From assembly GCF_035083965.1 (NCBI RefSeq), contig NC_089735.1, positions 1,371,501 to 1,435,500 on the forward strand: DNA of 64,000 nt. Direction: 5' to 3'. The notes under the pieces were generated by a model. That model did not search any database. It was given only the letters and a program-made list of their open reading frames with translations, and was not told where the DNA came from. Positions 22,758 through 50,800 of the stretch are shown piece after piece. The number at the start of each line of letters is the position of its first letter. Within the stretch, counting starts at the first letter, position 1. Made by a program: the position numbers and the translations under genes. The DNA is from Branchiostoma lanceolatum (lineage: Eukaryota; Chordata; Leptocardii; Amphioxiformes; Branchiostomatidae).

Positions 22758-22854
22758 TATAACGCCGCAGTCCGGGATGTCTTCTGTCCGTCTCATCAGA
22801 TCGGCGGTCTGAAATTCCTGTTCTGACGTCATCCTTCAATCACCATGGAGACAG
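22758..22854 (+). promoter_or_regulatory. 5' UTR and start-codon exon of gene A with CRE-like site
   Basis: The exon runs from a CTTCCAG acceptor to a GTGAGT donor. It carries the palindromic CRE-like TGACGTCA at 22824-22831 and the start codon in a good context (CACCATGG) at 22845. Only 10 coding bases (Met-Glu-Thr plus one base) are here. The CRE-like site and start context are identical in B (41784, 41805) and C (58042, 58063). Confidence 0.7.
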
Positions 22855-25800
22855 GTGAGTCACAGCGGTCACTTTCATTTCAAATTTAAAGTAACTTCCG
22901 GAGTATGCATTGGCTTCTAACTTTCGACTCGGATAGTCTTGCGGGGATGTTCTGAAACTTGCTAGTTTTAGGTCCAACCTGAACTTTTATACTTGGCATT
23001 GTCGTACTTATACCATGTGCAGGGCTCGAAATACTGGGTGCATGTGCACCTAATTTTTTACTGTGGGTGCACTGGTGCACCCAAATATTTTCGTACGGTT
23101 TAATGTGTAAAGGTATCACTGCACACTAGTAGACAGCATATTCTTGACATCTAAGTGTAAGAAAATAATAAAATCTTTGTTGTAGTACTTGTTTAAGATT
23201 TTGATGTTAGAATTTGAGTTAATTTCGATTTTGAAAGCTTCAAAACTGCGTGCCGAGATCGGGTGCCAAAAGTGCATGAAGAGGAACAGTAAGGTTTGTC
23301 ATTAGGTTTTGCTTACAATAGTTAGTCATTCTACTTTATTTTATGTGGTGCACCCAAAAAATTTTTGGTGCACCCAATTTTTTAGGTTGGGTGCACCAGT
23401 GCACCTATTCCCGAAAGTGAATTTCGAGCCCTGATGTGTGACTTAAAAATGTATTAGCAAATCTTTAAAATCCTATTTCAATTTTCAACATTTTGTCCAT
23501 GTTGTTTTCAAGATCAGACGTTATATTGCGCATTAACTTTACTTTTACTTTCACTCTAAATCACGTCTTCTGTCTTTATCTAGTTTGTTGAGTTTTTCAA
23601 GGACTTAACCGTTATGTAGATAAGGTTGTCTGGCACAGTTTCTGGCGTAATGACGCATTCTAATTAATGGCATGATAAAAAAATTACACTTTTGAAATAT
23701 GCTTTGATGACACGTGTTGACGTTGTGATGCTGTTGTTCCCTACCAGGTCCGCGTGTTGTCCTCCTGCACGCAGCAGAGGATGAGGAGTTCGTCAGGGAG
23801 CTGGTGGAGACGCTGGGGCGTCTACCCTTCGGTTACAGACTACCCGAGACAGCCATATTCTGTCAGCAGGTCACAGGCACTCCTGGTGACGTCAGCCGCG
23901 CACAGCTCACGTCCACACTGACCCTCGGCAGCGTGAAACTCGTCGTGCCCGTGATCAGCAGACACCTGCTTGCTGACCAGTCCTCGCTCACGGTCGGACT
24001 GGAAACTGCCGCGAGGAACAACAAGCCTCGATACGTCATTTGGCTGGACCAGAACCAGGATGACTTCCGTGAGTTCGGTACGTTAGTCAGCCGGCAGTAC
24101 CCAACCCTGGAGGCGCCGGCCAGGCGGGTCCAGCGGGACAGGGTTGAGGAGACGATGCCCGGCAGTCTTGTCAGTGGGATGGAAGGCATCGCCTGTGATG
24201 TGCGTGACGCGCTCTGCAGACAAACAGGTGAGGGTGGACATGTCATGGCTGTTACACAACACAAAAACAGCGGCTCTTTTTGTCACTTGTAAATCAAAGT
24301 AATTTCTTTAACGTGTAAACGTAAAAGAGAAATAGCAAAAGTTGTTTACTTTCTTATCTAACTTCTGATATATCACAGCTAAAGCCAATATTTTGCACAT
24401 TTATAATACTTGGTATATAATGTCTCTATTTTTCAGAACATTTTCACAATGAGCTCTTAGAAGGTTTTTGGTGATATAAAAAGTTATTAGTTTAACATAC
24501 TTTCTACGATGGAAGATTGAATATGTCGACGGGATATGTTAGCAGGAAAGCAAATTATTTCCTTGCAAAGATGACTTGTTGACATGTACATGCTCACAAC
24601 AGAGGAATACTTGTAAAATGCGTGCGTAATAGATACGTTGTATACAATTTTACTGCCGTAATATGAAATGTTTCAACACTTTGTAAACTACTAGTAGAAT
24701 GATGTCTGACCTGTGCCGTTTGTTTGTCCATCTCCACAGGTGAACTGAGGTTGCCGTGCTGGCAGGCCTTGGACTGGACTCGTGCGTTCCTGGCTGACAA
24801 CATGAACCTCCCAGCTGTTCTCACACGGCTGGAACAGGAGAACCAGCTCAGTCCAGCTGAGGTCCGGGATATCCAGGTAGGTCACGTGGTGAAACCGGCA
24901 GTTGTCATTTATTGTGACATATGTTTAAGATAAAAAAAAGAACAATTTCCACTAGGATTCAGCATCATTATTAAGTATACTAATAAGAGTTCATACTAAA
25001 GGAATTAGTAAATCAATCGTCCACCACAAATTACGTTTTGCACTACATGTAGATATTTTTTGTCTATCAGAATTTTAACTACGATAGTGTAATCTTCGCA
25101 AAGAAAACTGTTTTAAGTAGCAGTACATAACCATACATACATGTACGGCCAAAGTTGTCAAACCAGCGGGCAGGTATTGGCGACAAACTTCAATGTGGCT
25201 GTTATGGTTGTAAGCCTGCATGCTTACATACGTCCACCTAGTTTCTGCTGTTCGCACTTTACAATCTGACAACCACAGTTAAATGATTCAAACACACGCA
25301 GAAGTACAGGAATGTTGATTAGCCCAAACCACCCCTGCCGATGTTCCCTTCCCCAGGCGGAGCCGACACCAGTAAGCAGGGCGGCGCGGTTGGTAAAGAT
25401 GCTGTACGACAGGATGCGGCAGGAGCCGTACGACTGGTTAGTGCGGGTCCTGCGGGAGGAAGGACAGGACTTCCTGGTGGAGGAGATGGAGGACCGGGAG
25501 CGGTACTACGAGCGGTACTTCGGCATCGGGGAACAGCAGGCGGCACAACCTGGCCAACAAACGGCACAGAGGGAACAATTCGAACAGCAAAGTCAAGGTA
25601 GCTAAACTATCATGTCTTTGGCTTTATTTAAATCTCTAACAGCAATATACTTCTGCATTTTAAAACTTCCAGCCCGTGTTTGATTTATGTTATCCTTGTG
25701 TAAAGATACGGATCATTGTGTTTGATCGATGATAACTTTTTCATTCCATATTAGTATCCATCCTACTCGCAAGACACCACGGATCGCATGCTTATACGCT

Positions 25801-28800
25801 AAAGCAGAATACATTAAAGGAACCTATTATGTACTACATCTATGTGCCGTCTACTGTAGTAATCATACTTTATGTGACCGTTTCTGCAGCAGTGTCAATG
25901 CAGAAACACCTACGTCATCGATATCCCGGCGCGCATGCGGACGATGAAACAACTTTGACAGTCAAGGCTGTCATTCTGGGACAGACGGAGGCAGGGAAGA
26001 CCAGTCTGCTCAACTGTATGGTCAAGGCTCAAGGTCACGTGGAGATTGAAACTGACAGAACCATCGGCGTTGACGTCATCACTTACCATGACACCAAGAA
26101 TAACGTCAAGTACGAGATGTACGATTTCGGAGGTCACCATATCTACCACTACACGCACCGGTTCTTCCTGACACGTCAGGCCCTGCACATCCTCAATGTA
26201 GACCTGCCAGGATACAAGTCAGAAGAGTTCCAGGAACGAGTGGGAACGTGGCTAACATCCGTGACTTCCCACGTGTTCAACCCGGCTATCCTTGTTGTAG
26301 GAACCAAAGTTGACCTGTTTCTGTCAAACAAAGCCGAGGAGATGATAGCAGCAGCTTGTTCCTCCATCCAGAGGGACATCCAGGTCGCCGAGAGTAAAAT
26401 ACAAACAAAACTGAACGAAGAAATACAACTCGGTCAGAATGCGCTGGAAGCAGCAGATGTTGTAGACCTTCCCGACGCTTTTTACAGTCTCACAAAGGAC
26501 GATATCTTGACCAAGAAAGAGTCCTTGGAGAAGCTACTTGACGGACGACCCAAAGGTCTGTTAAAGGTACAGGTTATCCCAGTCAGCAGCAAGACATTCC
26601 AGGGTATCGAAGCTCTGTGCGACAAGATGGCAGAAATGGTGAAGGACGAGCGATTGTTCCCTGCTGCCCGCCAAGAACTGCCGACTTCGTGGACGAAACT
26701 ATCGAAAAACATCAAGACTTCAGAACAGGTCACTGTCAGGGATTGTAAGAAGGTCGGAGCAGCTGCAGGGATGAAGGAGTCAGACGTCCTGAACGCGCTC
26801 AGCTATCTGCACGTGACCGGACAGATCCTGTTCTACAACCACATCAGGGGGATGGAAGATCTGGTCTTCCCGGACCCAACCATCATCCTCACACTCTTCA
26901 AGCAGATATTCAGGCATGACCTACCGGCATATCTGGACAGCTTAGCTAAGTCTCTCCCCGCACGTGCAAGATTGCAGTTTGCTGCAGACAGAGCGTCCTT
27001 CTTAAAGACGGGTAGGGCAAGCGACAGTTTCATGGAGAACCTGCTTGGAGACAACATAGCCACCTTCAACACTCTCCTTCCCCTGATGAAGCACTTCGGC
27101 CTGTGTTACTCGGGGTCGGTGATCTTTCCAACAGAGCTTCCTGCCGCCCAGCCTGACAAGGTGGCGCGCTGCTGGCCAGAGGTTGTGCCATCAGGTGCAG
27201 AGGAGATCTCTGTTACTATAGAGTACAGCCAAGAGCCTCCTCTGGGTCTACCGGAAACCATGGTCTCCCGTATCCTGTCCATGGAGCAGACCACACGCCG
27301 CCTCCTCACCAAGGACACAGTTGTCGTTCATGTTGGAGAGAACTCAGAGGACGTCATGTACCGCCATTTCCCTACAAGAGAAGAAATCCGGATCCGGGGA
27401 GAGCCGGAGAAGGCGTGGCGCCAGGCTCAGATGGTAGCGAAGGTGCTAGAAGCCTGTTGGGACGAGTTTCCTGCCTTGTACTTCAGTAACAGTGTTGGAA
27501 GCGTAGAAACAACAAAGTCGCTCACTATAGAGGCTGTGAGGCGTCACGTGCCGGGTGACTTGTTGAGAATGTCTGAAGGAAACTGGGAACGGCCGCTCGA
27601 GCTTCCTGTCATCAGAACGTCGGAGGACGTTATTGGCAAGTACTTCATCGGTAAGTACGACAGGCGTCGTTATCTAAAGTACTGAAATGACCCAAGTATG
27701 TTTTAGTAGATACTATTAGGTACATGTAGTTAACGCCGAAATACCCTATTGGCAAGTACTTCGTCGGTAAATATAACAGGTGTCTTAGTATAAAGGAAAC
27801 TAATATGGCTATATTTGCAGTAATATGTAAAGAATGCAGGTCTTGAATAGACACTGGATGATAGACATTAGGGATGTACATATTGATGTATATAGATATA
27901 TTTTATATAGGTGTTCTCAATTTTATTGTAAATATCATCGCCATCCAGGCTTGCTTTGTCTGCAAGTTTTGATATTTGAATGAAGAAGATAGGGGCATAA
28001 CTCACGTGACTTCATTTAATGTCAACACCATATTCCCATTTCATTGTTTCTACCCAGTTTTATATCCATTTAAAAATGCCAGCTTCAATATATTTAATAT
28101 ATAAATGCTTTAAGTGCGCTCTAATGTGCCTTTCTTTCTCTTACATTATGTAAAATTTAGATTTTTAAAAGATTGCAATGGTTATTGTATCAGGTTCAGA
28201 TATATCCTTTATATTTGCATTTTCCAGCAAGATTGATTTTCTTTCTGTCCAGACAACCGGCTGTACCAGGTCAGCAGGGCTATTGGTGAGGAGGAGCAGC
28301 TATGGATCCGGCTGGGACAGGAGCTGGGACTGAACAGGGCCGTGTTGGACAACATGGAGGGGTGGTACCTTGGCAACGACACCCAGGCATCGTTCCAGAT
28401 GCTGAAGGCGTGGCGCACTAAGACCCCCCACGGACCGCTCCACTACCTGTCGCAGCTGGAGGAAACACTGCAGAACATCGGCAAACCGGACCTGGCTGCA
28501 GCTGTACAGGGGGTGTACAAGGTGAGTTGACAAACCCTGGCCATATCTAAATCCTATTGACTATACTTAATGAACAAATGGCAGATTATTGGAGAGGAGA
28601 ATTTCTCGAACAGGCCAAGGTTTTTACTCGGTTTTAAAGGGGTCCTAAAGTCCAGAGGGGGGAGTTTTTTTCCAATAGAGGATAATTTTAGGAAGTAGAA
28701 ATGAATATTTTTTACAGTATACGATAAATTACGCGCTAGTCCCATGCGCATCAAAGAGCATTCGGTATTCTACCGAATTCCCCAGGTGACCTTCTATTTT

Positions 28801-31800
28801 CTGATTAATTAAATTAAACAACCTCAGCCTATGGCCTAATACAATGTGCCTCGCAAGGGCTGACAAAAGGTATATTACAAAAAGAATGGGTGGTTAAGAA
28901 AAACTCGTCTTTTCGTTTATATCTTATTAACAATCGGCCTTATTATTCTGCTTAACCACCATCATTTATGCCGTAATGATATGAAGTATCATATTATTTT
29001 ACAAAACACACCTTGTGAAATTTACCACAAGCAGAATTCTGTAAAAAGTCGGCTGATTATGTATTAATTGATACATAATCTAGTGGAAAATAACACCCCC
29101 TTCTGGAGTTTAGGACTCCTTTAATGACTGTATAAGCATGATCGAACTGATGGTATTACTTTTATATCAAGTTGTAATGTTAAGTAAACATGCTACTAAA
29201 AGAAGAGATAACAGTGCTGAAGTCGCAGGAGTGAAAACAGTCATATAGATTTTCCTCTGCGGATCTTGATCATTCGTCATAGGTAGACTAATTGTCGATC
29301 GTACAGAAAAGACAAGTAGTCTATTGGATTCAAATAGTCTATAAAACACATTCTTTGATGAAGACCTTCAGGTAATTACTATTGTATATGCATTCTCATA
29401 TGTGATTTGTCTTGGTACTGTAATATCCAAAAACATAATATATCATCAACTTCACCAACATTCCGTGTATCCAGGAATACCGTGAAGCATTGCCGATACA
29501 AGAGGTCAGTCCTGAGATGACCGGAGACACAGAATGGTGGGTTGAAACTTTAAAAGTCCAGCAACACCAGATACTACACAAACGTCTTCCTCTATTTACC
29601 TTTCAATAAAGAGAATCTTTGTCATATCTCCTCAATGCATGGCTGTATAAATGAACAAATGTTCTTTATTTCCAAGTGTCATAAATGAGCTTTATAATAC
29701 CTATGTTAATCTCCTCAGGTCCCTCCGGCTGCCAGGTGAAGGGAAATACCTGTGCAGACGGACCGACCTGGGCGTGGTGACGCCCTACCCGCTGCACGTG
29801 ATCTACAGGAGTGCGAACTGGTCCGACAACTGGCAGCAGGTGGGGGAATGGATGCCGGTGGGTCCGCTCTTCTCCATCCAGTGTGAGGACGTGGAGGGGC
29901 CGGTGGACATCCTGCTGCCGCACGTGCTGCACCTGGATGATGCAACAGGTAAGAAGATCAATCACAAATTTAGAGTTGCTATGCTGTACGTGGGAAACGA
30001 TTCTGGTTGGTGTATATGTCAGGATACGACCCACATTAATATCAATCACAAATCAAGATTTCCTACGTGTTATTCATTAACTTCCAGGATGATGTTACAA
30101 CTAATGTGAACAGCCAGGGCTGAATGTAAAAAATGCGATGAAGCAGAAACTCCGCCAATATGCGTTTTGAAACGTACGGTTGCTATTCTGGTGAAAACTC
30201 TGTTGATATTCTGTTCAATGACGCCAGTTTATTGAATTGTTAGCAAGCATCAATGTACATCTTCAGCATATGTGATCCCAAACGGCCGTTTATATCCTAT
30301 CTTAGGACTCACCCCAGAAGACGTCCAAGTCGTGCACGTGGTGGGAAACTCCCCCGAGCTGCTGCCGGTTACAGAGCTCACCCCCTCCCACGCCATGACC
30401 AGGTTCAAGAAGGGAAGTCTGTTCGGGGTGGTGGGGAGGACAGAGAAGGCTCTGAGTGTGTCTAGGAATGGACTACTAATGGCCTTTTCTTTAGTAGACG
30501 ACACCGACATTTCGAGACTGAAAGTTTACATCGTCTCCAACACTACTATCATGCAGGAGGTGGGGACTTACGTAGATATCTATACTTATGTTACTTTACC
30601 ATCAGATTAAGGTCATCAAAAATTCGTGTTTACTTCATCACTACAGTTCACTACAATTCGCCTGTGTGGATGAATACAACATTACAGCATTATACGTTAT
30701 GTCCAATACTTCATGATCATGCAAAGGTGAATTTTACTAAGGTAATAGCGTCGACGTCTGTACCAGGCTGAGCATTAATTCCCATTGCTATTTTTTCAAA
30801 GATTATCCATGTCCATGTCCAAAAGTCAAATTTTCATGTTTCAACTTTGTCAAGGACTTGGCTCTGAATATAGAGCATTTTTTATCTACGCCGAGGAACT
30901 CGGAGTAGATTATGTTTTCGGTTGAGCCGGATGTTGTGTGGATCTGTATGTATGTCAAGAGCATAACTCGGGAAACCTTTAATAGATCTTCATGATATTT
31001 GGTAGGTATGTAGTGGTTGTGCAAAGGAAGGTCAAGTTCAAAAATCGTTTACCTGGCGTTTTCCAACAGTACTGCAGCGGACTTTTAATTTTTCTGTGTT
31101 TGTATGTAGGCAAAAAAAGTGACGGAAACGTTGATGAATCTCAATGATTTTTGGTAGGTAGGAAGAGATTGTGAAAACGGAGGTCAAGTTTAAAAATGAT
31201 TTATCTGGCGCTTTCCTACAGTACTGCAGCAGGCTTTGTGTGTGTGAGAGTTTGTATGTCGCCAGCATAACTCGAGGAGCTGTTGACGGTTGTGCATGAT
31301 ATTTAGTGGATAGTTAGGGGTGTCAAAGAGGAAGGTCAAGTTCGATAATGGGCCTCCTAGCGGGTATATGAGGTACTGCAGCGGAGCTTCAACGTTTGAG
31401 GCCAAATTTTCTGGAGGCGCCAGGTTCATAATTTTTAGGTGGTATATAGCTTTTGGGACGGCAAGTGAGTGGTGTGAATTATGGCCCCCTAGCTGCACGT
31501 TTGGAACTGCAGTTGGCGTTTTTGGTAATACCTTTGGAGACGAATAACTTCAGCAGGGATTGACGGATTATCATAATCTATGGCATGTGGATAGTTTCGG
31601 TGATGCTTTACATAATTGAATACTTGTCATGCAAATAAGACGATAATTTGCATAATAAATGAGGAAAGTTTATCAATCCGCCAAAAGCTTGTATTCAAAT
31701 TTCATGCAAGTGCTATGGTAATGATTTTTAAGTGGTGTACAGCTCTTGGGGCAGGTAGTAACTGATGTAAGTTTAGACCCCCTAGTGGCTTGCTTAGAAC

Positions 31801-34800
31801 TGCAGTGGGCTTTTTTGATGTTGCCTTTGGAGGTGAATAACTCGGGTAGGGTTTGATGAATTTGCATTGCTTTGGACAGGTAGGTTATTGAGGTAATGAT
31901 TAACAAATATAGACGTATGAAATTGTAATCAGGGTCTAATTAAGTGGTGAAATAGGCTTGTTTATGATTGCGTTAAAGTACCCTTTGTTGACCTATATTC
32001 AAGGACAACACCTGCTTGTCAGCAGGCCTGTGTAAATTAGATTGATGCTCTCTGGTGACCTCACTACCACCGTCCAAACTACTCTCCCGCTGGGACGGAG
32101 CTAAATCAACAAACACAGGAAAGGTCAGGCCCTGTGAGGGACTATCGTCAACCAGATGGTCCTGACGTCGTACCTCAGATAGGGAAACACTACTTCTTTC
32201 AGCCACTTAAAGAACGCAACAACGAACTTGTCTTCCAATTTAGTCTTCATACGAGGTCAAAGTTCGGAAACCCCCCCACCCTATCATCGCTACCTACCGC
32301 CCGGGAGGGGAACTGCCGTCACCGAGAAATTGTCCTTCCTTGGCAACACGTCTTGGGTGACCATGGAAGAAATTAGAGATTCCTCCACCAATTATTAACG
32401 ATCTGATGGCTAAGGGAATCAATCAAAGAATCGATGTTTCAGCTACCACACGCGTTTCTGAGGCACTGGTTTGTTGTGTCCAGCAGGAGTCAGGACTAAC
32501 GAGCCCGGTAAATTATGTTACCAACGTGAGGTGCACAGGAGACAGGAGAGGGGCAAAGTACACGGACTATCCTATTGTGCGAGCAGGGGGGTAACGTTCA
32601 TCAGTACGCAGGACTAGAGAGTCTGTCTGATCTTTAGTACGATACTTTGTCTGCTGGTCACTCTCACTTTCACTGTCACTCTGGTTTGAAAAACCCCTCA
32701 AAGTGATCATCTTCTGACACGGTCTCAGCATCGCCGTTAACGTCTGTGGTTGTGTGCGATGTTTGTGGTCCCGGATTTTTGTAGTCAGCATAACTCAAGA
32801 ATGGATGCCGATTATGACGATACTTGGTACGAGTATGACTATGTGGGCAGGTATTGGGAAGACGAAGGTCAGGGTCGATTTTGGGCCCCTGGTATGTGAC
32901 CCTGGTACTTCAGCAGAACTGAACGTGCTATGGTCTTGATCCTTTGGTGTCAGGAAGCTTGTGATGTAAGTAGAATTGTTGTAGCTTTGGGCCCCCTACC
33001 AGCTTGCTCTTGATCTGCAGTGACATTTTGTCAAAATATCCTAAACGAGAATAACTGAACACAGCCACCAAACTTCAAGTCTCTTGACTATTGGTATAAT
33101 CCCCTGATTATTCGGCGTAGATATGTGTTCGTGGAACTCTAGTTTATTATTGTCTTCCAGAAAAATTGTACATGAAATATGCCCGTTATATGTCTATCAT
33201 CTATCATGAAAACTTTTAAAAATATGACCTCTCCAATCAAGACATTTTTGGTGGTTCATTGAAAACACATCACATTTCCTGCATAGTTTATTGATGTGTT
33301 TAATGCTATTCTATTATAGGCCATTGAGAAAAACGAGAAAAGGTGGAACTTCACACCTTGCGACTGTAAGACCTGTCAGCTAAAGCCGGGCGATGTCTAC
33401 TTCCTAGAGGGGAGTGTCACAAATGGCAGAGACATGTTTTTGTCGTCATCTCCACAGGTTTGTTTAGAATGTCGCCGCTGTGATTTATCTTCCTGAGTAG
33501 TTAGCAAGAACAACTATGACGGGCGTGAAGAAATTAATACTAATACTAATACATGTACTGACATAAGCATGATTATCTACATCTGAATTTGAAGGTCGAT
33601 GTCTTTTTCTAACATTTTTTAGGTTCATAACATTATTGGTAGATTTATTATTTACTGAAATTTATGTGTGAGTGCGCGTGCCAGCTTACCAATGGAGGGT
33701 ACGTATTGTTATTGTACAGCCTAGATTTTACATCTTTTTTGTTTTGCCATAAATTTCAGTGCCTCATGTTTGAAGACACTTTCGACACTAACAAACTTTA
33801 CGAGCCGTTCCGGGTGGAAGTTACTTCCGACATCTGGAACAACAGCACCACCTCGCGACTAAACTTGGAACTGCTTAGGGAGGCAACGGATGGTGCGAAG
33901 GAAGTCATTGAAGGATTGACGTTAGGTAATCTTAGACCAAGTTGATTTCGAAAGTAGCATATTCTTGATTTGTAAAAGTAAAACAAAATGACAACTTAGA
34001 AGTTGAGATCTGCTCTAGAATCTCTACAGATTATAATGAGAAAATAACTTAAAAGTAGTATTTTATGTGCAAAAGTGCGATTAAACTATCCCAATAAAGA
34101 AGGCAATAGCATTTACGACATTTTTTTTCTTCCAGGCCACTACAAGCGAAACTACACTGACGAAGGTTTTGACAGCGGTCTTTCAACACCGGAGCTGGTG
34201 GAGTCTATGAGGCGACGATTGGAATCATCAAATATTGCAGGTATTGTCTGATTAATGGTACCGAAACTGCAAGATCCAATCTGTTCTTTCCAAGTTTAGC
34301 TACCTTAGGTTTGTAGTTCAAAAACCGAAGCATACCCATTATTCTCTTGAACAGGTTAATTGCTGCATATATAGTGTATGGACTTCAGTAAGATCAGCAA
34401 TCTTGAAGTTCCCGTCGTTTGACATTTACCACTTAAAGTGCAGCTCATTTTATGTCATACTATGGTCGCTGTCAGTAGGGCAATACGTTTTTTGCTGTTT
34501 TATGATTATCGCCAGTTTGATATGAATTCATAATAAAAAGACCACTTTAATGGCACTTTCATCAGTGTATGCTTTTTCAATCCCTTTACAAAACAAATGT
34601 TATCCAAGGCAAAGGTTCAGTCCTGCTGGTTGGAGATGAATTCTGCACATCGAAGGGCGGAATCTCCACCATCAACCTGAACGTCGCGCGCAAGCTCACC
34701 GCCGCGGGCGCCGAGGTCTACGCCACCGTGTTGGAGGCAAGTGAACAGGATGAGAGGGACGCAGAACGAGACGGAGTGACACTCATCAAACCTAGCGTCA

Positions 34801-36070
34801 GCCAGGGCTTTGATGCTAAGCCGTCCCTTGACTGGCTGACAGAGTACCACAGCGTTCATTTCCCGCACCTCCCGCCAAATGTCAGTTGCATTGTGGGCCA
34901 TGTTGACGTCACCAGCAGAGCAGCCAGGAAGATCAAGGAAGAGCGATTTCCACACGCCAAGCTCGCCATGTTTGGTCACGTGGCGCCAGAGGAGACAGAG
35001 CACTACAAGAGTGACGAGAAGGCCCTGGGTGTGGGGAGGAAGGAAGCCAGCATTCAGGAAGACATTGGCAAGGCTGATGTCGTCTTCTCGGTAGGAGCGC
35101 GCATTCACAGGCATTACGACAGGTTCCTCCGTCGGAATCGCGTGGATCACCACATCTTCCTACCTAAGCCTTCAAGGGTGTTCAGTGAAGCAAATGTGAG
35201 CTTTGATGAAGAAAGTGAAAAAGTCAGAAAGCCAGAGAGAATAGTTCTGTCCACTGGCAGGGTGCTGAATGTGGAGATGCTGAAAGGTCACGACCTGGCT
35301 GCAGGAGCCATTGACAAGGTGGCACAACGTCTTGACGGTCAGTACACACTGAGGCTGAGAGTCCGCGGCATCGATGAGAACGACTTCAAGGAGAGCAAGA
35401 GAATCCTGGAGGAGAAGCTGAGATCCGGGCGGGTCAAACCCACATTGCTTCCGTACGGCACTCAAGAGGACATCCGCCGAGACATGGAGAACTGTCACCT
35501 GGTCCTGATGCCGTCCCGGGCCGAACCGTTCGGACTGGTCGGCCTGGAGGCCATCGCGGCAGGAGTTCCCGTCCTCATCTCAGAGCACTCGGGACTTGCA
35601 GAGCTGATAGAGGAGCTATCGGAGAAGTTGGAGCAGCCAACGTTCCGCCACTGCATCGTCAAGATGAAGGGAGACACCGCGACCGACGGGGATGCAGAGA
35701 AGTGGGCAGAAAGAATCGAGGATGTCCTCAAGAACGCCAGGTCAGAGTTCGCGGAAGCACGCGCCTTCAGGGAGAAGCTGCTGGCCTCCAAGTACTGGGA
35801 GGAGTCTCAACAGAAGTTCCTACAGGCCTGCGGCATCACTGGTGAGAGACTATAACTTCGTTGAAAGATTGATATTGTGGATATATGTATGATGTTTTTT
35901 TTTCAATTACAGTACATCAGCAATGGTATTGTATATTACCAATATGCGATAATCCATTCATTTCCATGCTTATGTCATTTTATGTATATTTGAATACATC
36001 TACGTACTTCACAGACGACCCCAGTGCCGAAGCGGAGGGTGGAGGTGCTGAAGCTGATGACTCGGACTGA
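22845..36070 (+). CDS. Gene A: TIR-like/CARD/Roc-COR/death/FIIND/GT4 multidomain protein
   Basis: Fourteen coding exons join in frame: 22845-22854, 23748-24227, 24740-24876, 25357-25597, 25890-27650, 28253-28521, 29475-29536, 29719-29948, 30306-30559, 33320-33457, 33760-33925, 34136-34240, 34609-35841, 36015-36070. The product is 1713 residues. Order: TIR-like (about 5-163), CARD (164-270), Roc GTPase and COR (312-876), death domain (877-966), linker, FIIND-like ZU5/UPA (988-1250), short Ser-rich linker, GT4 glycosyltransferase (1285-1695) and an acidic tail. No signal peptide is seen, so it is probably cytosolic. Roc-COR would act as a nucleotide-driven switch, and the death-fold parts should recruit signalling partners. 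The glycosyltransferase end has no counterpart in vertebrate FIIND proteins (PIDD1, NLRP1, CARD8). Internal introns were placed by splice sites, reading frame and paralogue comparison. Role in defence is inference. Confidence 0.87.
23020..23433. mobile_element. MITE with 13-bp perfect terminal inverted repeats in gene A intron 1
   Basis: The ends CAGGGCTCGAAAT and ATTTCGAGCCCTG are perfect inverses, with a direct repeat ATGTG outside each end. The interior repeats GGTGCACCCA and its complement. Gene C has the empty site (TACCATGTGTGACTTG) at the matching place, so this is a true insertion after duplication. The family is not assigned. Confidence 0.88.
23748..24227 (+). CDS. Gene A exon 2: TIR-like domain
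   Basis: The segment opens with a first beta strand RVVLLHAAEDEEFVRELV, as in TIR domains, where acidic and aromatic residues follow the strand. Then come a BB-loop-like turn (VTGTPGDVS), a third strand VKLVVPVISRHLL and the helix SLTVGLETA, whose Glu89 falls where TIR NADases have their catalytic glutamate. A later strand RYVIWLDQNQ fits strand D. Sequence similarity to classical TIRs is low. A divergent TIR or related flavodoxin-like fold is the reading; adapter versus enzyme function cannot be decided. Confidence 0.68.
24740..25597 (+). CDS. Gene A exons 3-4: CARD
   Basis: The two exons (24740-24876, 25357-25597) together give a six-helix CARD pattern. Exon 3 holds NLPAVLTRLEQENQLSPAEV, matching the second and third CARD helices (a Leu-rich helix, then 'xLSxxEV'). 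Exon 4 gives RLVKMLYDRM, EPYDWLVRVLREEGQDFL and VEEM, matching the last three helices. A Gln-rich tail (about 25 residues) links to the GTPase. CARDs bind other CARDs in caspase and NF-kB signalling; the partner here is unknown. Confidence 0.8.
25890..27650 (+). CDS. Gene A exon 5: Roc GTPase and COR domain
   Basis: One long exon encodes a complete Roc-COR pair, the defining core of ROCO proteins (LRRK2, DAPK1, MFHAS1 types). The P-loop is GQTEAGKTS, the switch threonine is in RTIGVD, the DxxG box is YDFGGH, the TKxD box is GTKVD, and the fifth box is VSSK. COR follows with LPTSWTKL, LHVTGQILFY and VFPDPTIILTLFKQIF. No kinase or leucine-rich repeats accompany it. The acceptor at 25890 was chosen because it alone keeps the frame from exon 4 and is conserved in B and C. 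Confidence 0.92.
28253..28521 (+). CDS. Gene A exon 6: death domain
   Basis: The 90 residues fit a death domain: an opening helix with DNRLYQVSRAIG, then LWIRLGQELGLNRAVLDN (the 'W..La..LGl' signature), FQMLKAWRTKTPHGPLHYL with the conserved Trp, and ETLQNIGKPDLAAAV. The exon is conserved in B (46890-47152) and C (62854-63113), which vary mostly in the loop between helices 2 and 4. It should mediate homotypic binding. Confidence 0.88.
28638..29120. mobile_element. MITE with TTAA target duplication in gene A intron 6
   Basis: AGGGGTCCTAAAGTCCAG at the left end and CTGGAGTTTAGGACTCCT at the right end are inverse with two mismatches. TTAA flanks both ends directly (28634-28637, 29121-29124). 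Gene C keeps the empty site GTTTTAATGACTG. TTAA duplication is the hallmark of piggyBac-type elements; the 483-bp interior encodes no transposase. Confidence 0.9.
29475..29536 (+). CDS. Gene A exon 7: shared linker before the module swap
   Basis: This exon encodes about 20 residues, EYREALPIQEVSPEMTGDTE, conserved in B (48748-48814) and C (63586-63647). It is the last sequence shared by A and B: A leaves it in phase 2 and B in phase 1, and the following exons are unrelated. Confidence 0.8.
29719..33925 (+). CDS. Gene A exons 8-11: FIIND-like (ZU5/UPA-type) domain
   Basis: Exons 29719-29948, 30306-30559, 33320-33457 and 33760-33925 encode a FIIND. The first half has GKYLCRRTDLGVV, HVIYRSANW, VGPLFSIQCE and ILLPHVLHL, as in the ZU5-like part of NLRP1 and CARD8. 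The UPA-like half has GLLMAFSLVDD, LKVYIVSN and EAIEKNEKRWNF. In NLRP1 and CARD8 a His and a Ser 27 residues apart drive self-cleavage between Phe and Ser. Here His1074 (in QVVHVV) and Ser1101 (in KKGSLFGVV) have exactly that spacing, but Gly precedes the Ser. The cleavage itself is not proven. Confidence 0.82.
30900..33110 (+). repeat. Degenerate repeat monomers in gene A intron 9
   Basis: This 2.76-kb intron carries about seven diverged copies of a unit starting (G)CATAACTCG or GAATAACT near 30962, 31265, 31543, 31835, 32788 and 33048 (plus one near 31110 lacking that start). Several continue into TGATATTTGGTAGGTA and AAGGTCAAGTTC. About 31955-32770 is a different, unclassified insert with short open frames but no recognisable protein. 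Copies are too diverged for unit ends to be set. Confidence 0.6.
34609..35841 (+). CDS. Gene A exon 13: GT4-type glycosyltransferase domain
   Basis: A single exon gives a full GT-B fold domain of about 411 residues. The N-terminal half has the glycine-rich acceptor loop TSKGGISTINLNVARKL after strand SVLLVGDEF, and GHVDVTSRAA and AMFGHVAPEE in the expected places. The C-terminal half has RIVLSTGRV, then LVLMPSRAEPFGLVGLEA. Its E-x7-E pair (EPFGLVGLE) is the nucleotide-sugar binding signature of family GT4, and AGVPVLISEHSGLAE follows. All main signature residues appear intact, so enzyme activity is plausible. The sugar donor and target are unknown. Confidence 0.88.
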
Positions 36071-41804: not shown

Positions 41805-44800
41805 ATGGAAACAGGTGAGTCACGGCGGGCACTTTCATTTCAGATTTAAAGTAACTCTCGGAGTTTACAATGACCTCTAACTTTCGACTCGGATAGTCTT
41901 GCGGGGATGTTCTGAGACTTGCTAGTTTTAGGTCCAACCTCAACTCTTTTTACTTGGCATTGTCGTAAGTCTACCAAGGAGGTTTTATATATATATATAA
42001 AACCTCATTGATTCTACCATGTGTTGCTTAAGAAAATACATTAGCAAATCCAATTTTAATTTTCAACATTTTGTCCATGTTTTTTTCCAAGATTATCCAA
42101 TATATTGCGTAATGATTTTACTTTCACTTTTATTCCAAGTCACGTCTTCTGCCTTTACATGTATATAGTTTAATGAGCTTTTTCAAGGACTCGACGGTTA
42201 TGAAGATAATGTTGTATGGCGTAGTTTCTGGCGTAGTGACACATTCTAATTAATTGCATGATAAGAAAATCACACTTTTGACATATGCTTTCATTACACA
42301 TGTTGACATTGTGACGCTGTTGTTTCCTATCAGGTCCGCGTGTTGTCCTCCTGCACGCAGCAGAGGATGAGGAGTTCGTCAGGGAGCTGGTGTGGAAGCT
42401 GATGACTCTGGACTCTGACTACAGTCTACCCCAGACAGACATATTCCGTCAGCAGGTCACAGGCACTCCTGATGACGTCAGCCGCGCACAGCTCACGTCC
42501 ACACTGACCCTCGGCAGCGTGAAACTCGTCGTGCCCGTGATCAGCAGACACCTACTTGCTGACCAGTCCTCGCTCACGGTCGGACTGGAAACTGCCGTGA
42601 GGAGCAACAAGCCTCGATACGTCATTTGGCTGGACCAGAACCAGGATGACTTCCGTGAGTTCGGCACGTCAGTCAGCCGGCAGTACCCAACCCTGGAGGC
42701 GCCGGCCAGGCGGGTCCAGCGGGACAGGGTTGAGGAGACGATGCTCGTCAATATTCTCATTATGCCCGGCAGTGCTTTCAGTGGGATGAGAGGCATCGCC
42801 TGGGATGTGCGTGACGCGCTCTGCAGACAAACAGGTGAAGGTGGACATGTCATGGCTGTTACACAACACAAAAAACAGGGGCTCTTTTTGTCACTTGTAT
42901 TTCCTTTTTTCGTGTAAACGTAAAAGAGAAATAACAAAAGTTTAACTTTCTTATCTAACTTCTGTTATATCACAGCCAAATCCAATGTTTTGCACATTGA
43001 TATTAATTGGTATACAACGTCTCTATTTTCATAACATTTTCCCAATGAGCACAATAATATAAAAGTTATAAGTTTAAAGTACTTGCTAAGATGGACGATT
43101 CAATAAGTCGACGGGACGTTAGCAGGAGAGCAAATTATTTCCTTGCAAATATGACTTGTACAAGCTCACAACAGAGGAATACTTGTAAAATACGTGCGTA
43201 ATATATACGTTGTTTACAATTTTCCTGCCATCATATGAAATGTTTCAACACATTGTAAACCACTAGTAATATGATGTCTGACTTGGGCTGTTTGTCTGTT
43301 CATCTCCACAGGTGAACTGAGGTTCCCGTGCTGGATGGCCTTGGACTTCACTCGCGCGTTCCTGGCTGACAACATGAACCTCCCAGCTGTTCTCACACGG
43401 CTGGAACAGGAGAACCAGCTGAGTGCGGCTGAGGTCCGGGATATCCAAGTAGGTCACGTGGTGAAACCTGCAGTTGTAATTTATTGTGCCATATGTACTT
43501 TACACATAAGAAGAACAATTTCTACTATAATTCAGCATTATGATTAAGTAAACTGATGAGAAGTTATACTATAGGGATTAGTTAATCAATCGTCCACCAC
43601 AAATTACGTTTTGCACTAGATATTTTTTATCTCACAGAATTTTAAATAATATAGTGTAATCTTTCTAAATAAAACTTCGCCTAGCACGTTTTGACTAGCA
43701 ATAACTAATTCACAACATCTATTTATTCATTAGGTTGACTTAACCATACATACATGTACAGCCAAAGTTGTCAAATCTGCAGGCAGCTATTGGCGACAAA
43801 CTTCAATGTGGCTGGTATGATCGTAAACCTGCATTCTAACATACGTCTACATAGTTTTTGCTGTTCAGACTTTACAATCAGACAACCACAGTTAAAGAAT
43901 TCAGAGATACGCAAAAGTATAGCAATGTTAACTAGCCAAGCCACCCCTGCCGATGTTCCCTTCCCCAGGCGGAGCCGACACCAGTAAGCCGGGGGGAGCG
44001 GTTGGTAAGGATGCTGCGGGTCAGGAGGCGGCAGGAGCCGTGGGACTGGTTAGTGCGGGTCCTGCGGGAGGAAGGACAGGACTTCCTGGCGGAGGAGATG
44101 GAGAAAGAGGAGCGGTGGTCGGAGCGGTTCTGCGGCATCTGGGAACAGCAGGCGGCACAACTTGGCCAACAAACGGCACAGAGGGAACATTTCGCACAGC
44201 AAAGTCAAGGTAGCTAAACTATAATGTCTTTGGCTTTATCTAAATCTCTACTTCTGATACTTAGTTGCATTTTAAAACTTCCAGTCCGTGTTTGATTTAT
44301 GTTATCCTCGTGTAAAGATACGGATCATTGTGTTTGATCGATGATAACTTTTTCATTCCATATTAGTATCCATCCTACTCGCAAGACACCACGGATCGCA
44401 TGCTTATACGCTAAAGCAGAATGCGTCAAAGACATTTATTTCCTTGAGAAATCTCACTTTGATCCAAATTTCAATTCCGCGAACATCACTTTATGACTCA
44501 CCAGGTCTATCCAAATCGCATCTCTTCTGCTTTCATAGAGGAGGGATCGTTGATATTTCTACCCATAAAACAAATCAGAAGCAGGTTATTTCACATTGTC
44601 CATAAATAGTAGTGAGTAGTAAGTATACATCAGAGTCAATTTTATGTACTACATCTATGTGCTGTCTACTGTAGTAATCATACTTTATGTGACCGTTTCT
44701 GCAGTAGTATCAATGCAGAAACACCTACGTCATCGATACCCCGGCGCGCATGCGGACGATGCCGCAACTTTGACAGTCAAGGGTGTGATTCTGGGACAGA

Positions 44801-47800
44801 CGGAGGCAGGAAAGACCAGTCTGCTCAACTGTATGATCAAGGGTCAAGGTCACGTGGAGATTGAAACTGACAGAACCATCGGTGTTGACGTCATCACTTA
44901 CCATGACACCAAGAATAACGTCAAGTACGAAATGTACGACTTCGGAGGTCACCAGATCTACCACTACACGCACCGGTTCTTCCTGACACGTCAGGCCCTG
45001 CACATCCTCAATGTAGACCTGCCAGGATACAAGTCAGAACAGTTCCAGGAACGAGTGGGAACGTGTCTAACATCCGTGACTTCCCACGTATTCAACCCGG
45101 CTATCCTTGTTGTAGGAACCAAATTTGACCTGTTTCCGCCAGACAAAGCCGAGGAGATGATTGCAGCAGCTTGTTCTTCCATCCAGAGAGACATCCAGGT
45201 CGCTGAGAGTAAAATACAAACCAAGCTGAAAGAAGAGATTCAACTCTGTCAGAAGGCGGTGGATGCAGCGGACGGTGGATCAGACATACCCGAACGTTTC
45301 TACGGTCTCACAAGGGACGACATCTTGACCAAGAAAGAGTCATTGGAAAAGTTACTTGACGGACGACCGAAAGGTCTGTTAAACGTACAGGTTATCCCGG
45401 TCAGCAGCAAGACGTTCCAGGGTATCAATGCTCTGTGCGACAAGATGGCAGAAATGGTGAAGGACGAGCGATTGTTCCCTGCTGCCCGCCAAGAGCTGCC
45501 GACTTCGTGGACGAAATTGTTAGAAAACATCAAGACGCCAGGACGGACGTACCTTCATGTCAGGGATTGTCAGGACGTCGGAGCAGCTGCAGGGATGAAG
45601 GAGTCAGACGTCCTGAACGCGCTTAGCTATCTGCACGTGACCGGACAGATCCTGTTCTACAACCATATCAGGGGGATGGAAGATCTGGTCTTCCCGGACC
45701 CAACCATCATCCTCACAATCTTCAAGCAGATCTTCAGGCATAACCTACGGGCATATCTGGACAGCATAGCTGAGTCTCTCTCTGAAGATTTCAGAGTGCA
45801 GTTTGCTGAAAACAGGACGTCCTTCTTAAAGACGGGCAGGGCAAGCGACAGTTTAATGGAGAACCTGCTTGGAGACAAAATCGTCACCTTCAACAGTCTC
45901 CTTCCCCTGATGAAGCACTTCGGCCTGTGTTACTCAGGGTCGGTGATCTTTCCAACAGAGCTTCCTGCCGCCCAGCCTGACGAGGTGGCGCACTGCTGGC
46001 CAGAGGTTGTGCCATCAGGCGGAGAGGAGATCTCTGTTACTATAGAGTACAGCCAAGAGCCTCCTCTGGGTCTACCGGAAACCACGGTCTCCCGTATCCT
46101 GTCCATGGAGCAGACAACGCACCGTCTCCTCACCAAGGACACAGTTGTCGTTCATGTTGGAAAGAACTCAGAAGACGTCATGTACCGCCATTTCCCTACA
46201 CGAGAAGAAATCCGGATCCGGGGAGAGCCGGAGAAGGCGTGGCGCCAGGCTCAGACGGTAGCGAAGGTGATAGAGGCCTGTTGGGACGAGTTTCCTGCCT
46301 TGTACTCCAGTAACAGTGTTGGAAGCGGAGAAACAACAAAGTCGCTTCCTATAGAGGCTGTGAGGAGTCACGTGCCGGGTGACTTGTTGAGAATGTCTGA
46401 AGGAAACTGGGAACGGCCACTCGAGCTTCCTGTCATCAGAACGTCGGAGGACGTCATCGGCAAGTACTTCATCGGTAAGTACGACAGGCTTTTTTGCATA
46501 AAGTTATTATAAGGAACCTCATATTATCGGACGCGTCATTGGCAAGTATTTCGTTGGCATGTACAACAGACCTTCTTTGTTATATAGGAACCTATAGGCA
46601 CATTGTCCTATTTTAGTTACATATAAAAAGAGGTTCGTGGCAGACATAACTCCGTTTCCGGCAGATATGGCAGATATAGATTCATTATATATAACAACTC
46701 ATTCAATGTTAACGTTCCTGAGCTCTATTTGATTCCTGTTCACCTCTAATATCCTTTAAATGGAAATGCTTTTAATGCATCTTGTTTGTCCTCCCATTCT
46801 GTTACTTCGTAAAGACATCCATTTTGGGCCAACATTTTGTTTTACGTCTTGTGTTTGTATATTCCTTCAAAATTGATATTTTCTTCCAGACAACCGGCTG
46901 TACCAGGTCAGCAGGGCTGTTGGTGGGAAGGAGCGGCTGTGGATCCGGCTGGGACAGGAGCTGGGACTGAACAGGGCCGTGCTGGACAACATAGCAGGGA
47001 AGTTCCCTAGCACCCAGCAGGCGTTCCAGATGCTGAAGGCGTGGCGCACCAAGACCCCCCACGGACCGCTCCACTACCTGCCGCAGCTGGAGGAAACACT
47101 GCAGAACATCGGCAAGCCGGACCTGGCTGCAGATGTACACGGGATATATAAGGTGAGTTAGCAAACCCTATTCGTATTCCAACCCTCTTGTCTACTTGAC
47201 GAATAAAGTTTGACTACTGTGGCAGATTATAGGAGATGAGGATTTCTGAAACAAGGACAGGTCGATGTCGCGGTGCTTGACTTTAGCAAGGCATTCGACA
47301 CCGTGCCCCACGAGCGGCTGCTAAGCAAGCTCGAGCACTACGGCATTTCTGACCTTCTTCAGTCTTGGTTTAGGGCCTTCCTAACAGAGAAAACCCAGAG
47401 GGTTGTCTTTGACGGCGGAACATCTAAAGCTGTCAGGGTCACCTCTGGAGTCCCTCAGGGTACAGTGTTAGGCCCTTTGCTCTTTCTACTGTACATTAAC
47501 GACCTCCCCAGCTCCGTAGATTCACACGTTCGATTATTTGCCGACGATTGCTTGATTTATCGAACTATCAGCACGCCTTCTGACGCACAAGGTCTACAGT
47601 CTGATCTTGATGCACTAACAGATTGGCAAAATCGTTGGCTTATGTCGTTCAATCCCTCTAAATGCCACATCCTCCATATCACCCGTAAAAAGCACCCCAT
47701 CCTAACTCAGTACTCCCTAAGTGGAGAAGCCCTCACCGGTGTCAAGTCCCACCCCTATCTTGGAGTACAACTGTCCGATGATCTGCGGTGGGACACCCAT

Positions 47801-50800
47801 ATCAACTACGCCACTAGCAAAGCCGGCAGGGTACTAGGGGTCATTCGGCGCAATTTGACCCATTGTCCATCTAGGGTCAAGGCCACTTGTTACAAAGCGC
47901 TGGTGCGGCCCCACTTGAAATATAGTGCCACCGTCTGGGACCCGTACACCACCAAAGGGATACAGGCGGTGGAGGCCGTCCAGCGCAGGGCCGCCCGAGT
48001 GACTCTGAATGACTACCGGCAGACTAGCAGCGTGACACAAATGCTCAATGACCTGCAGTGGACCCTTCTCTCTGAAAGGAGGAGGAACGCCCGTCTCACC
48101 TTTTTCTATAAGCTAGTTAATAACCACATCAATATTAATACAGATAGTCTACTGAAACCAGCTCAGGGGCGCACCCGGGGAAGCCACACGCTCAAATTCC
48201 AACCACTTTACGCCCGAACAGACTCATTTAAATATTCTTTTTTCCCTCGCACCATACCCGAGTGGAACGCCCTGCCTGGCGCGGTTGTTACGGCTCCCAC
48301 CGTTGAGTCTTTCCGCGCCAGGCTGGAGGCCTGCCCGCCTTAGCCTGGGACCTCCTCCCCCCCCTACTTTGCCCCTCGCGGGGTTATCTGGGGGTATATT
48401 AAGTTGAAATTAAGTTGAAGGTCTTCGGTTGGGCATTAATGACCGTATATGTAGTACTGGCCAGATGATTATAGTTAAACGTAATTATGGTAAGGAATGT
48501 AATGTTAAGTAGATGATGTCACAGCCAAACACATTTCTTTTTCTTCGGTGCATATCGATCGAAATGTTGTTCATTTTTTCAAGTTTGAAATTAGTCCAAC
48601 TTGTGGTTAGCACATCACACTTACTTTCAATGAATACATTTAGGTTACTTCAACTATACATAGATAATTCACATAGGTTATCACCTTGTTACTGCATACT
48701 ATCCACGTACATGTATATCATCAACCACCAATTTCCCTTATATCCAGGAATATCGTGATGCCTTGTCGTTACAAGAGGTCAGTCCTGCGATGACCGGGGA
48801 AACGGAATCCAAAGGTAACCGCAACTTCTACAGTTTTTCCATGTGGATGTTCTGTTTTTACTTTGTTATATGTATGTAACATTTTCCTTTTTTACTAACA
48901 GAAAGTACTGCATACTCGATTTTCATTGATTAGATTCTGGGTCTCGGATGATGGAGAGGCTTGCTGACCAGCTAGATGAGGAGAACGTCCGGCAACTGTT
49001 GCGAGTATGCCGTCTATCCAGGCAGCTCAAACAGGAAATGCAAGATTCACAAAAGCCACGTGACTTGTTCGAGGCAATGGTGAAACTTGGGCACATCAAA
49101 CTTGGTAATTGCTCCTATTTCTTATTTAGGCACTTCAAATAGTAGAACTATAGGTTTTAAAGAAACATACCGAGTCTGCCTTGCCGATTGTAGCTTGCAC
49201 ACTGCTTGAAGGGAACTACACCTAAAATAATTTCAAACACTGTCTTGGCAAAACTGTCGGGACAACTATATGGTTCATTGTCATACAATTCTGCAATTTG
49301 ATATCAAGATATAGTACTATAGCCTGTGGATTTGAGTAGGCCTTCTAAGCGTTAAATATGATATACGTCATGAGCTATCTTTGACATGTTTTAGCATATC
49401 TTTACCATATTTCACGTTCTCTTTCGCGGTTGCAGATAACCTTACGATGCTCCAAAAGGACATGATCTCCGCTGGTATCAGCTGGAGTACTGTTGTTCGA
49501 AACGTTCCCGGTGAGGTGATTTCCCCCCACTTTTTTAATACCTTTACTAATGCAAAACGAAGGAAGGCACTATCATGTATGTAAAACAATAATCTAGTCA
49601 ATGACATAATGGACGACAAATACGCATACTATTTGGCACGAAGAAGAATCGTTTTAAATCATTTACAGGTATCTAACATTATAACAAGATCACATACATG
49701 TATGATGAATAGTCACAAAACGAATGCATGCCACCTTGTGAGATCCTTAAACAGTTCATGCATTCATGTAAATTGCCAGGGGTACCGATCTATCTTCGCC
49801 AACCGATAGTTGAAGAGGCTGACATCGGACCAGCAGGTGGAGCAGTTGAGATTCCACATCTCATCAAACTTGTTGTACCAGCTGGCGCCCTACTACAAAA
49901 CACGGAGGTGACTATCTCAACCGTGGACTTTCCAGGCATCTTGATCAGCGGCGGAGGTGTGCACTGGAGCTCCGGCTACCCATGGTCACATGCTAACGCT
50001 GCCTACTCACGCGAGATGTTGAATAGAGTGTTATTTTCTCCTGCTTTCCACGTCAACCTACATGGCGCTACGCTGACGGGAAGAGTACCTTTAGTGGTAC
50101 AGACGTGGCGGCCCTCTGGCACGGCGGATCACAAGTGTATCATTCTGCATCATGACGACATCACCGGCTGGAAGGATATCAGTTCCGAGGCGGAAACCCG
50201 TGTAACAGAAGACCAACTTGTGATCAGCCTGACTCAGTGCAGTACCATAGTACCAATCTGGATTCCTATTGTCTTGTTCAGTTCTGCAATTGCCGCAGCC
50301 ACATCGTCGTCAGCTTTGGTACCAGTGTTAGGCACAGCAGCAGCGGTCACGGCGGGGGAATATTTGGTCGCACTGATGCTTGGTCGCAGTAAGGAAGGCA
50401 CATTGAAATGCTGGTTTTCAGCGTACATGAAGCCAACTAACCATCCCCAACTACAGTTCCACGTGCTGTGTAAGGATGGCGTGTCGCAAGACGCATTTTC
50501 GTACAGAAGAGGTTTCGTTCATTGCGGTGACAACAGATCACAAGTATGCCTCTTCAATGGGGAATACGTTGATGTCCACGTCAAAGATGCGTTGGATGGA
50601 CATGAGCAAATAGAATCCCTAGTCGCGGATGCAAATGAATGCCGCTCGCAGTGGGGTCAGCAGGTACAACTGACCTTACCGAAGAATGAGTATCTTGTGG
50701 GCAAAGTAATAATTAAGAGAAACAAGGGAACCCAAGGCGTCTGTAGCCTGACGTTTGAGCAGGTAAGACAAGTAGTTATCTTGAAAAAGTTGTTTTGATG

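Follow-up and report, generated by a model that had tools for sequence, protein, structure and literature searches.

The amphioxus locus considered here raises the question of whether one animal gene can encode death-fold, GTPase-switch, FIIND, and glycosyltransferase modules in a single chain and, if so, what such a protein may do. A sequence-only reading of the window (the whole 64,000-nucleotide stretch of DNA that was analyzed) had claimed a spliced frame open over 1713 codons in what we call gene A; our 14-exon model, at 22845-36070 on the + strand, yields the same count, with a predicted protein of 1713 residues, no internal stop, and GT-AG boundaries at 13 of 13 introns (Table 1). The donor of exon 1 (CAG/GTGAGT) matches the consensus at 9/9 positions, equivalents of this exon lie at 41805-41814 in paralogue B and at 58063-58072 in paralogue C, and an ATTAAA sequence is present at 36108, 3' of exon 14. 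A start of exon 5 at 25755, giving a protein of 1758 residues, was set aside in favor of 25890, which has the better acceptor; the 45 additional residues have a membrane-helix-like look and are best taken as intron.

Table 1. Exons of gene A and features of its tandem paralogues in the window
Feature	Position	Strand	Content
Gene A exon 1	22845..22854	+	Start codon, aa 1-3; ATG in CACCATGG context
Gene A exon 2	23748..24227	+	aa 4-163, 480 nt, phase 1-1; "TIR-like" segment, identity unconfirmed
Gene A exon 3	24740..24876	+	aa 164-209, first part of CARD
Gene A exon 4	25357..25597	+	aa 210-289, remainder of CARD; fastest-changing exon among paralogues
Gene A exon 5	25890..27650	+	aa 290-876; Roc aa 315-431, COR-A-like aa 554-697
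Gene A exon 6	28253..28521	+	aa 877-966; Death domain match aa 892-962
Gene A exon 7	29475..29536	+	aa 967-986, linker; same place in B and C
Gene A exon 8	29719..29948	+	FIIND (ZU5 half); H1055 at 29921-29923
Gene A exon 9	30306..30559	+	ZU5 half ends, UPA half starts; H1074 at 30335-30337
Gene A exon 10	33320..33457	+	UPA
Gene A exon 11	33760..33925	+	End of UPA
Gene A exon 12	34136..34240	+	UPA-GT4 linker; basis is open frame alone, no profile match
Gene A exon 13	34609..35841	+	aa 1285-1695, GT4-conflict glycosyltransferase
Gene A exon 14	36015..36070	+	Acidic tail, stop codon
Paralogue B	41805..49510	+	Gene A exons 1-7 kept, then DED-like exons; model incomplete
DED-like exons of B, in place of FIIND-GT4	48934-49104, 49436-49510	+	DED match below cut-off
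Further DED-like open frame, probably a downstream exon of B	51880..52278	+	DED 2.9e-7, 31.1 bits, cut-off 35.9
Paralogue C	58063..64000	+	Exons 1, 3-8 as in A; window edge cuts FIIND exon

Domains were called with Pfam profiles against the whole gene A protein at curated cut-offs, and five of the six modules previously read in the frame (CARD, Roc, Death, FIIND, and GT4) gained profile support, the TIR module being left without it. The FIIND match (aa 982-1110) scored 104.3 bits (E 4.8e-30, cut-off 25.8) and the adjoining UPA-FIIND match (aa 1119-1216) 29.4 bits (cut-off 27), the Death match 33.3 bits (E 5.3e-8, cut-off 22.6), and the CARD match (aa 171-255), at 24.2 bits, lay barely above its cut-off of 23.9. 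The Roc part of the proposed Roc-COR unit lies above its cut-off (59.9 bits, E 3.5e-16, cut-off 27); its best PDB match is the Roc domain of LRRK2 (6xaf, E 1.8e-11), and the P-loop (GQTEAGKTS) and DFGG, by sequence reading, give it intact-looking GTP-binding motifs. The COR-A match lies where it is expected after Roc and, at 24.9 bits (E 2.1e-5), falls below its cut-off of 35.3. The order CARD-Roc-(COR)-Death-FIIND-UPA-GT4, and with it the conflict-type architecture proposed earlier, is borne out by the Pfam matches in the predicted protein. No sensor repeats of the LRR, WD40, or ankyrin type were matched by Pfam in this protein, and TRADD-N was absent among the 18 families listed.

Neither profiles nor PDB matches nor structure prediction gave usable support for the TIR module read at residues 1-163. 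This segment had no match in Pfam at E<=10 or in NCBIfam at E<=1, and PADLOC returned a single weak match, to an REase-TIR composite model (E 0.02). PDB sequences gave one meaningless match (E 1.7) and a paralogue profile none; hhalign comparisons with four bacterial TIR_2 domains, taken singly, were no better than decoys. The AlphaFold2 model of the segment has strands alternating with helices at low confidence (mean pLDDT 48.6).

The GT4-conflict match covers profile positions 1-384 of 385 with 279.5 bits (E 5.7e-83, cut-off 26); this cut-off is unspecific, as every one of 14 control genomes also passed it, so that the score is what carries the claim. GGIST (aa 1301-1305) and the pair E1590 (35523-35525) and E1598 (35547-35549) represent the glycine-rich N-terminal loop and the EX7E motif of GT4 catalysis, and both are intact-looking and identical in the two rhizobial plasmid relatives that were aligned (32% overall identity). 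In all, 7 of 72,556 plasmid records matched GT4 across 80% or more of the domain, a scan of genome contigs yielded one relative among 145 candidate stretches, through a short 31% match that is uninformative on architecture, and the GT4 exon occurs only once in the 64-kb window. The rhizobial plasmid proteins L002 and L004 resemble gene A in being large, with a C-terminal GT4-conflict domain carrying GGIST and EX7E, but the N-terminal part of L002 gave no death-fold match, a sub-threshold NACHT match (E 0.056) being all it had.

Whether these modules belong to one gene turns on the exon joins. Pfam matches span five of them (3/4, within CARD; 7/8; 8/9; and 9/10 and 10/11, within UPA), and joins 4/5, 5/6, and 6/7 are kept in order in paralogues B and C, as is 7/8 in C; given how similar B and C are as copies, however, an exon order common to both says little about conservation by independent descent. 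The passage from FIIND to GT4 is where another reading enters, namely, two adjacent genes: a CARD-Roc-COR-Death-FIIND receptor whose end would lie near 34250, and a GT4 gene of its own that would begin at an ATG at 34569, in frame ahead of the GT4 exon (the frame is open from 34551). The splice sites at intron 12 are the weakest in the model: its acceptor (AAG, with 8/17 pyrimidines) ranks last of 13, the donor of exon 12 matches the consensus at 6/9 positions, and none of six possible in-frame joins between exons 12 and 13 is strong. Retention of this intron would bring a stop 9 nt after the donor, and AATAAA occurs at 34093 and, between exons 12 and 13, at 34532. However, the two exons are only 368 nt apart, a tight fit for both a promoter and a 3' end, the phases agree at the chosen join, and placement of GT4 C-terminal to NTPase switches is a published pattern (PMC8195603); none of these points is decisive, and we consider two genes rather unlikely.

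The FIIND raises a second issue, that of self-cleavage. Its best solved match is CARD8 (E 1.2e-6), and by fold the predicted gene A protein belongs with the FIIND proteins, self-cleavage being only a candidate property. As in NLRP1 and CARD8, the FIIND comprises ZU5 and UPA halves; in those proteins UPA is followed by a CARD, whereas in gene A it is followed by the GT4-conflict enzyme. Were the domain to cleave itself behind G1100 in the manner of NLRP1 and CARD8, an active UPA-GT4 effector would be freed once the N-terminal part was lost. The CARD8 alignment puts the cut at G1100-S1101 (30413-30418, exon 9), and for this reason an F-S pair later in this exon (AFSLVDD) was rejected as the site. 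H1055, H1074, and S1101 align with CARD8 H252, H270, and S297, residues that matter for autocleavage by mutation (PMC3210808), and autoproteolysis is predicted for FIIND proteins of this kind in PMC8195603. Only three of five CARD8 autocleavage residues are kept, however: E279 is replaced by L1083, and F296, the Phe before the cut, by G1100, and PMC3210808 describes reduced cleavage for E279A and severely impaired cleavage for F296H. With the register fixed by one pairwise alignment at the E value given above, we regard self-cutting as doubtful.

Gene A is one of three family copies in 42 kb. In paralogue B, the CARD scored 20.8 bits, below the cut-off of 23.9; a B exon at 49713-50798 that looked ZU5-like by eye had no Pfam or PDB match. 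A reverse-transcriptase frame lies inside B. In paralogue C the start of exon 2, the TIR-like exon, is deleted; up to the window edge its order is otherwise that of A. Intron divergence among the copies is patchy (0.007 to 0.44), which suggests conversion or local rearrangement. Change in exon 5 (Roc-COR) is mainly synonymous (w 0.33-0.46 in three comparisons), whereas exon 4 has w of 2.7-3.7 (against exon 5, Fisher p 0.0006, 0.029, and 0.004, in comparisons that are not independent); when exon 4 was tested for positive selection, its excess of amino acid change did not differ significantly from the neutral expectation (p 0.058, 0.31, and 0.087). On these predicted products, the tandem family is one in which the switch is conserved and the tails are exchangeable, B having DED-like domains where A has FIIND-GT4. 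A reading of gene A as a recombinant, or as a copy in decay, within a tandem family that is expanding, its combination serving no specific function, is quite unlikely: the three clustered copies, the patchy introns, the truncated exon 2 of C, the reverse-transcriptase frame within B, and the finding that no class is more enriched than death-domain genes among dispensable lancelet genes (PMC12373286) favor it, but all 14 exons are open, the GT4 and Roc motifs are intact, and exon 5 has changed mainly at synonymous sites.

The earlier description of an undescribed system with a categorically unusual pairing was overstated, since the ingredients are published; the exact combination was not met in the literature searched. 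In PMC8195603, this GT4 family is already treated as a predicted effector of immunity, in bacteria as well as in animals; the paper also describes fusions of FIIND with TRADD-N proteins and GT4-TRADD-N-LRR proteins in cephalochordates, hemichordates, and cnidarians, with >500 GT4 paralogues in Acropora. Like gene A, these animal proteins carry the Pfam GT4-conflict domain, shuffled with death-fold and switch domains under lineage-specific expansion; in gene A, however, GT4 sits after FIIND-UPA and Roc-COR. The same paper places GT4 in the C-terminal effector position of prokaryotic AP-GTPase(Roc)-COR proteins, where it is one of at least 24 such effectors; these proteins share with gene A a central Roc/AP-GTPase and COR and paralogues that differ in effector, whereas gene A has no LRR match and adds CARD, Death, and FIIND. 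Invertebrate SAMD9-family proteins carry FIIND, according to PMC5445408. Coral NACHT/NB-ARC proteins with a glycosyl transferase group 1 domain likewise combine death folds, an NTP switch, and a glycosyltransferase in one animal protein, with tandem duplication and domain shuffling, but have NACHT where gene A has Roc-COR, and no FIIND is named for them in the available text of PMC4083563. No description of the exact CARD-Roc-COR-Death-FIIND-UPA-GT4 chain was found in the literature searched, which takes in passages of PMC8195603 apart from its Figure 6A and source data, where such an architecture may appear. As far as the searches reach, the new element is the predicted placement of FIIND-UPA directly before GT4, behind Roc-COR, in one animal protein.

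We give a probability of about 0.5 to the reading that gene A encodes a predicted innate-immunity or cell-death protein, a ROCO switch with CARD and Death in front (the Death match itself is C-terminal to Roc) and FIIND-UPA and GT4-conflict behind, in a tandem family with exchangeable tails. Its domain combination and the neighboring copy with a different tail make gene A probably a diversifying innate-immunity gene. We infer a single transcript and an autoinhibited product, in which the switch and FIIND would keep the enzyme inactive at rest. The GTPase would be turned by a signal that either a partner or the N-terminal part, which is fast-changing, would sense; the protein may then form multimers through its Roc-COR, death-fold, and UPA parts, and while the death folds may recruit caspase-type partners, the GT4 domain may glycosylate an invader or host molecule as its substrate. 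The fullest version, in which a G1100-S1101 cut and N-terminal loss would release a UPA-GT4 enzyme (not an adaptor) that multimerizes and glycosylates its target, from a Roc-COR switch protein whose tail is exchanged between tandem copies as in prokaryotic AP-GTPase systems, seems to us quite unlikely.

To our knowledge, work on FIIND has dealt almost entirely with its part in releasing a CARD from NLRP1 and CARD8. The predicted occurrence of FIIND-UPA before a glycosyltransferase of bacterial-defense type suggests that FIIND may deploy different outputs, and gene A offers a test case for whether animal Roc-COR switches drive enzymes besides kinases. Should the chain prove real, it would also link the Roc-COR-GT4 pattern of prokaryotes to a family of chordate immune genes whose tails are exchangeable.

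Rebuilding gene A from the sequence gave 1713 residues and a terminal stop, which bears out the single spliced frame of 1713 codons proposed at 22845-36070 (+) in the sequence-only reading, and 13 of 13 introns have GT-AG ends. That reading had also placed six modules in the protein; when the whole of protein A was scanned against Pfam with curated cut-offs applied, the profiles upheld Roc, Death, FIIND, GT4 and, barely, CARD, with COR-A below its cut-off in the expected position and TIR unsupported. The Pfam scores are well past chance, apart from modest ones for CARD, COR-A and UPA. If the exon 7 donor is not used (29537-29609, +), the frame runs on for 24 codons to a stop overlapping AATAAA at 29605, and a short isoform ending behind the Death domain would be possible. 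Directly beyond A, an inverted repeat at 36212-36371 (two 78-nt arms, 81% complementary, 4-nt spacer) resembles a small foldback element, and at 4082-5516 a 98-bp unit is repeated in tandem 14.6 times (95% matches).

Exons and Pfam domains of gene A (window positions; aa, residues of protein A)
Feature	Position	Strand	Basis
Exon 1	22845-22854	+	rebuilt from sequence
Exon 2	23748-24227	+	rebuilt from sequence
Exon 3	24740-24876	+	rebuilt from sequence
Exon 4	25357-25597	+	rebuilt from sequence
Exon 5	25890-27650	+	rebuilt from sequence
Exon 6	28253-28521	+	rebuilt from sequence
Exon 7	29475-29536	+	rebuilt from sequence
Exon 8	29719-29948	+	rebuilt from sequence
Exon 9	30306-30559	+	rebuilt from sequence
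Exon 10	33320-33457	+	rebuilt from sequence
Exon 11	33760-33925	+	rebuilt from sequence
Exon 12	34136-34240	+	rebuilt from sequence
Exon 13	34609-35841	+	rebuilt from sequence
Exon 14	36015-36070	+	rebuilt from sequence
CARD	aa 171-255		24.2 bits, only 0.3 bits over curated cut-off
Roc	aa 315-431		59.9 bits, over curated cut-off
COR-A	aa 554-697		24.9 bits, below cut-off 35.3
Death	aa 892-962		33.3 bits, over curated cut-off
FIIND (PF13553)	aa 982-1110		104.3 bits, over curated cut-off
UPA-FIIND	aa 1119-1216		29.4 bits, over curated cut-off
GT4-conflict (PF20706)	aa 1290-1687		279.5 bits, over curated cut-off

Joins 3/4, 7/8, 8/9, 9/10 and 10/11 are spanned by Pfam matches; 4/5, 5/6 and 6/7 recur in unchanged order in the tandem paralogues B and C, and 7/8 recurs in C. 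The sole basis for 11/12, 12/13 and 13/14 is splice signals and phase, and 12/13, which joins FIIND to GT4, is the weakest in the gene (donor 6/9 consensus; acceptor AAG, with 8/17 pyrimidines), being one of six possible in-frame joins between these exons, none of them strong. Since AATAAA also occurs at 34093 and 34532 and the GT4 frame has its own ATG at 34569, a separate GT4 gene that is not part of A stays a live rival. The domain architecture of A is probably real, its FIIND-GT4 link is predicted from splice signals and phase, and the mechanism proposed for it is one that we infer.

The GT4 domain matched 7 of 72,556 plasmid records by tblastn (identity 22.5-28.9%), all seven across at least 80% of its length. 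Aligned with two of these, the rhizobial plasmid proteins L002 and L004, which end in this domain, it is 32% identical to each, and all three share GGIST, K1510-G and both glutamates of EPFGLVGLE, the EX7E motif. L002 (1637 residues, GT4 at the C-terminal end) has a subthreshold NACHT match (E 0.056) and an annotated SIR2 gene nearby. The Pfam cut-off for GT4-conflict is unspecific, being passed by 14 of 14 control genomes.

The solved structure closest to the FIIND of A is CARD8 (E 1.2e-6). Mapped through this alignment, H252, H270 and S297 of CARD8 are retained as H1055, H1074 and S1101, whereas E279 and F296 are replaced by L1083 and G1100. According to PMC3210808, S297A abolished CARD8 cleavage, F296H severely impaired it, E279A reduced it, and mutants showed H252 and H270 to be crucial; the NLRP1 triad is given as E1195, H1186 and S1213 in PMC9700037. 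The module thus has the FIIND fold, but with three of the five CARD8 residues kept its self-cleavage is doubtful.

The TIR module claimed for exon 2 found no support in Pfam (0 families at E<=10), NCBIfam (0 matches at E<=1) or PDB sequences (a single spurious match, to a helicase, E 1.7; none with a paralogue-built profile). PADLOC gave a single match, to a REase-TIR composite (E 0.02). By hhalign, the segment scored E 0.098 over 24 columns against an alignment of four bacterial TIR_2 domains, and 0.29-0.69 against the four singly, versus 0.33-0.78 for four decoys. Its AlphaFold2 model (mean pLDDT 48.6, pTM 0.44) alternates helices and strands, an order common to many alpha/beta folds, TIR among them. 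The TIR label is not supported.

A literature search found no description of the chain seen in A, and Figure 6A/source data of PMC8195603 may already include it. That paper is the closest account found: it predicts an effector role for GT4, both in animals and in prokaryotic AP-GTPase-COR proteins, whose C-terminal domains it puts at 24 kinds or more, and mentions FIIND-TRADD-N fusions. Excerpts elsewhere describe coral proteins with NACHT and glycosyl transferase (PMC4083563), invertebrate SAMD9 proteins with FIIND (PMC5445408), an NLR figure legend naming FIIND and GT (PMC11508797), and Death as the domain most overrepresented in dispensable lancelet genes (PMC12373286). In the excerpted text, the words ZU5, glycosyl, GTPase and UPA are absent from PMC2575513, on amphioxus domain shuffling, and PMC6526094 treats Death alone among the domains of A.

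Searching the window with protein A by tblastn found two more copies, B from 41805 and C from 58063. B matches exons 1-7 (Roc-COR identity 87%; CARD 20.8 bits, under the Pfam cut-off), followed by two exons, 48934-49104 and 49436-49510, whose DED-like match scores 29.1 bits, below the cut-off of 35.9; a second DED-like frame at 51880-52278 scores 31.1 bits. The B tail region also holds a 361-aa open frame (49713-50798, +), ZU5-like by eye, with 0 matches in Pfam or PDB, and an RVT_1 reverse-transcriptase frame (47240-48343, +; 367 aa, 6.7e-24) lies in the B intron that separates the Death exon from exon 7. C matches exons 1-8 (Roc-COR identity 97%) and lacks a stretch of 345 bases, found in A at 23621-23965, that includes the exon 2 acceptor and exon start; omitting the acceptorless remnant (58408-58677, +) preserves the frame because exon 2 has phase 1-1, and C then stays open for 880 codons up to the window edge.

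The window has no second copy of the GT4 exon, so substitution rates cover other exons only. For A-B, A-C and B-C, w (a dN/dS-type rate ratio) was 0.37, 0.33 and 0.46 in exon 5, 2.75, 2.67 and 3.68 in exon 4, and 0.74, 0.89 and 0.82 in the Death exon; in exon 2 it was 1.69 (A-B) and 0.86 (A-C, part of the exon). Exons 4 and 5 differ (Fisher p 0.0006, 0.029 and 0.004, in comparisons that are not independent), and the excess of exon 4 over neutrality is not significant (p 0.058, 0.31 and 0.087). Intron divergence among copies ranges from 0.007 to 0.44, which makes conversion or rearrangement likely and calls for caution in reading the rates. The picture is of A, B and C as a tandem family in which the switch is common to the copies and the tails differ.
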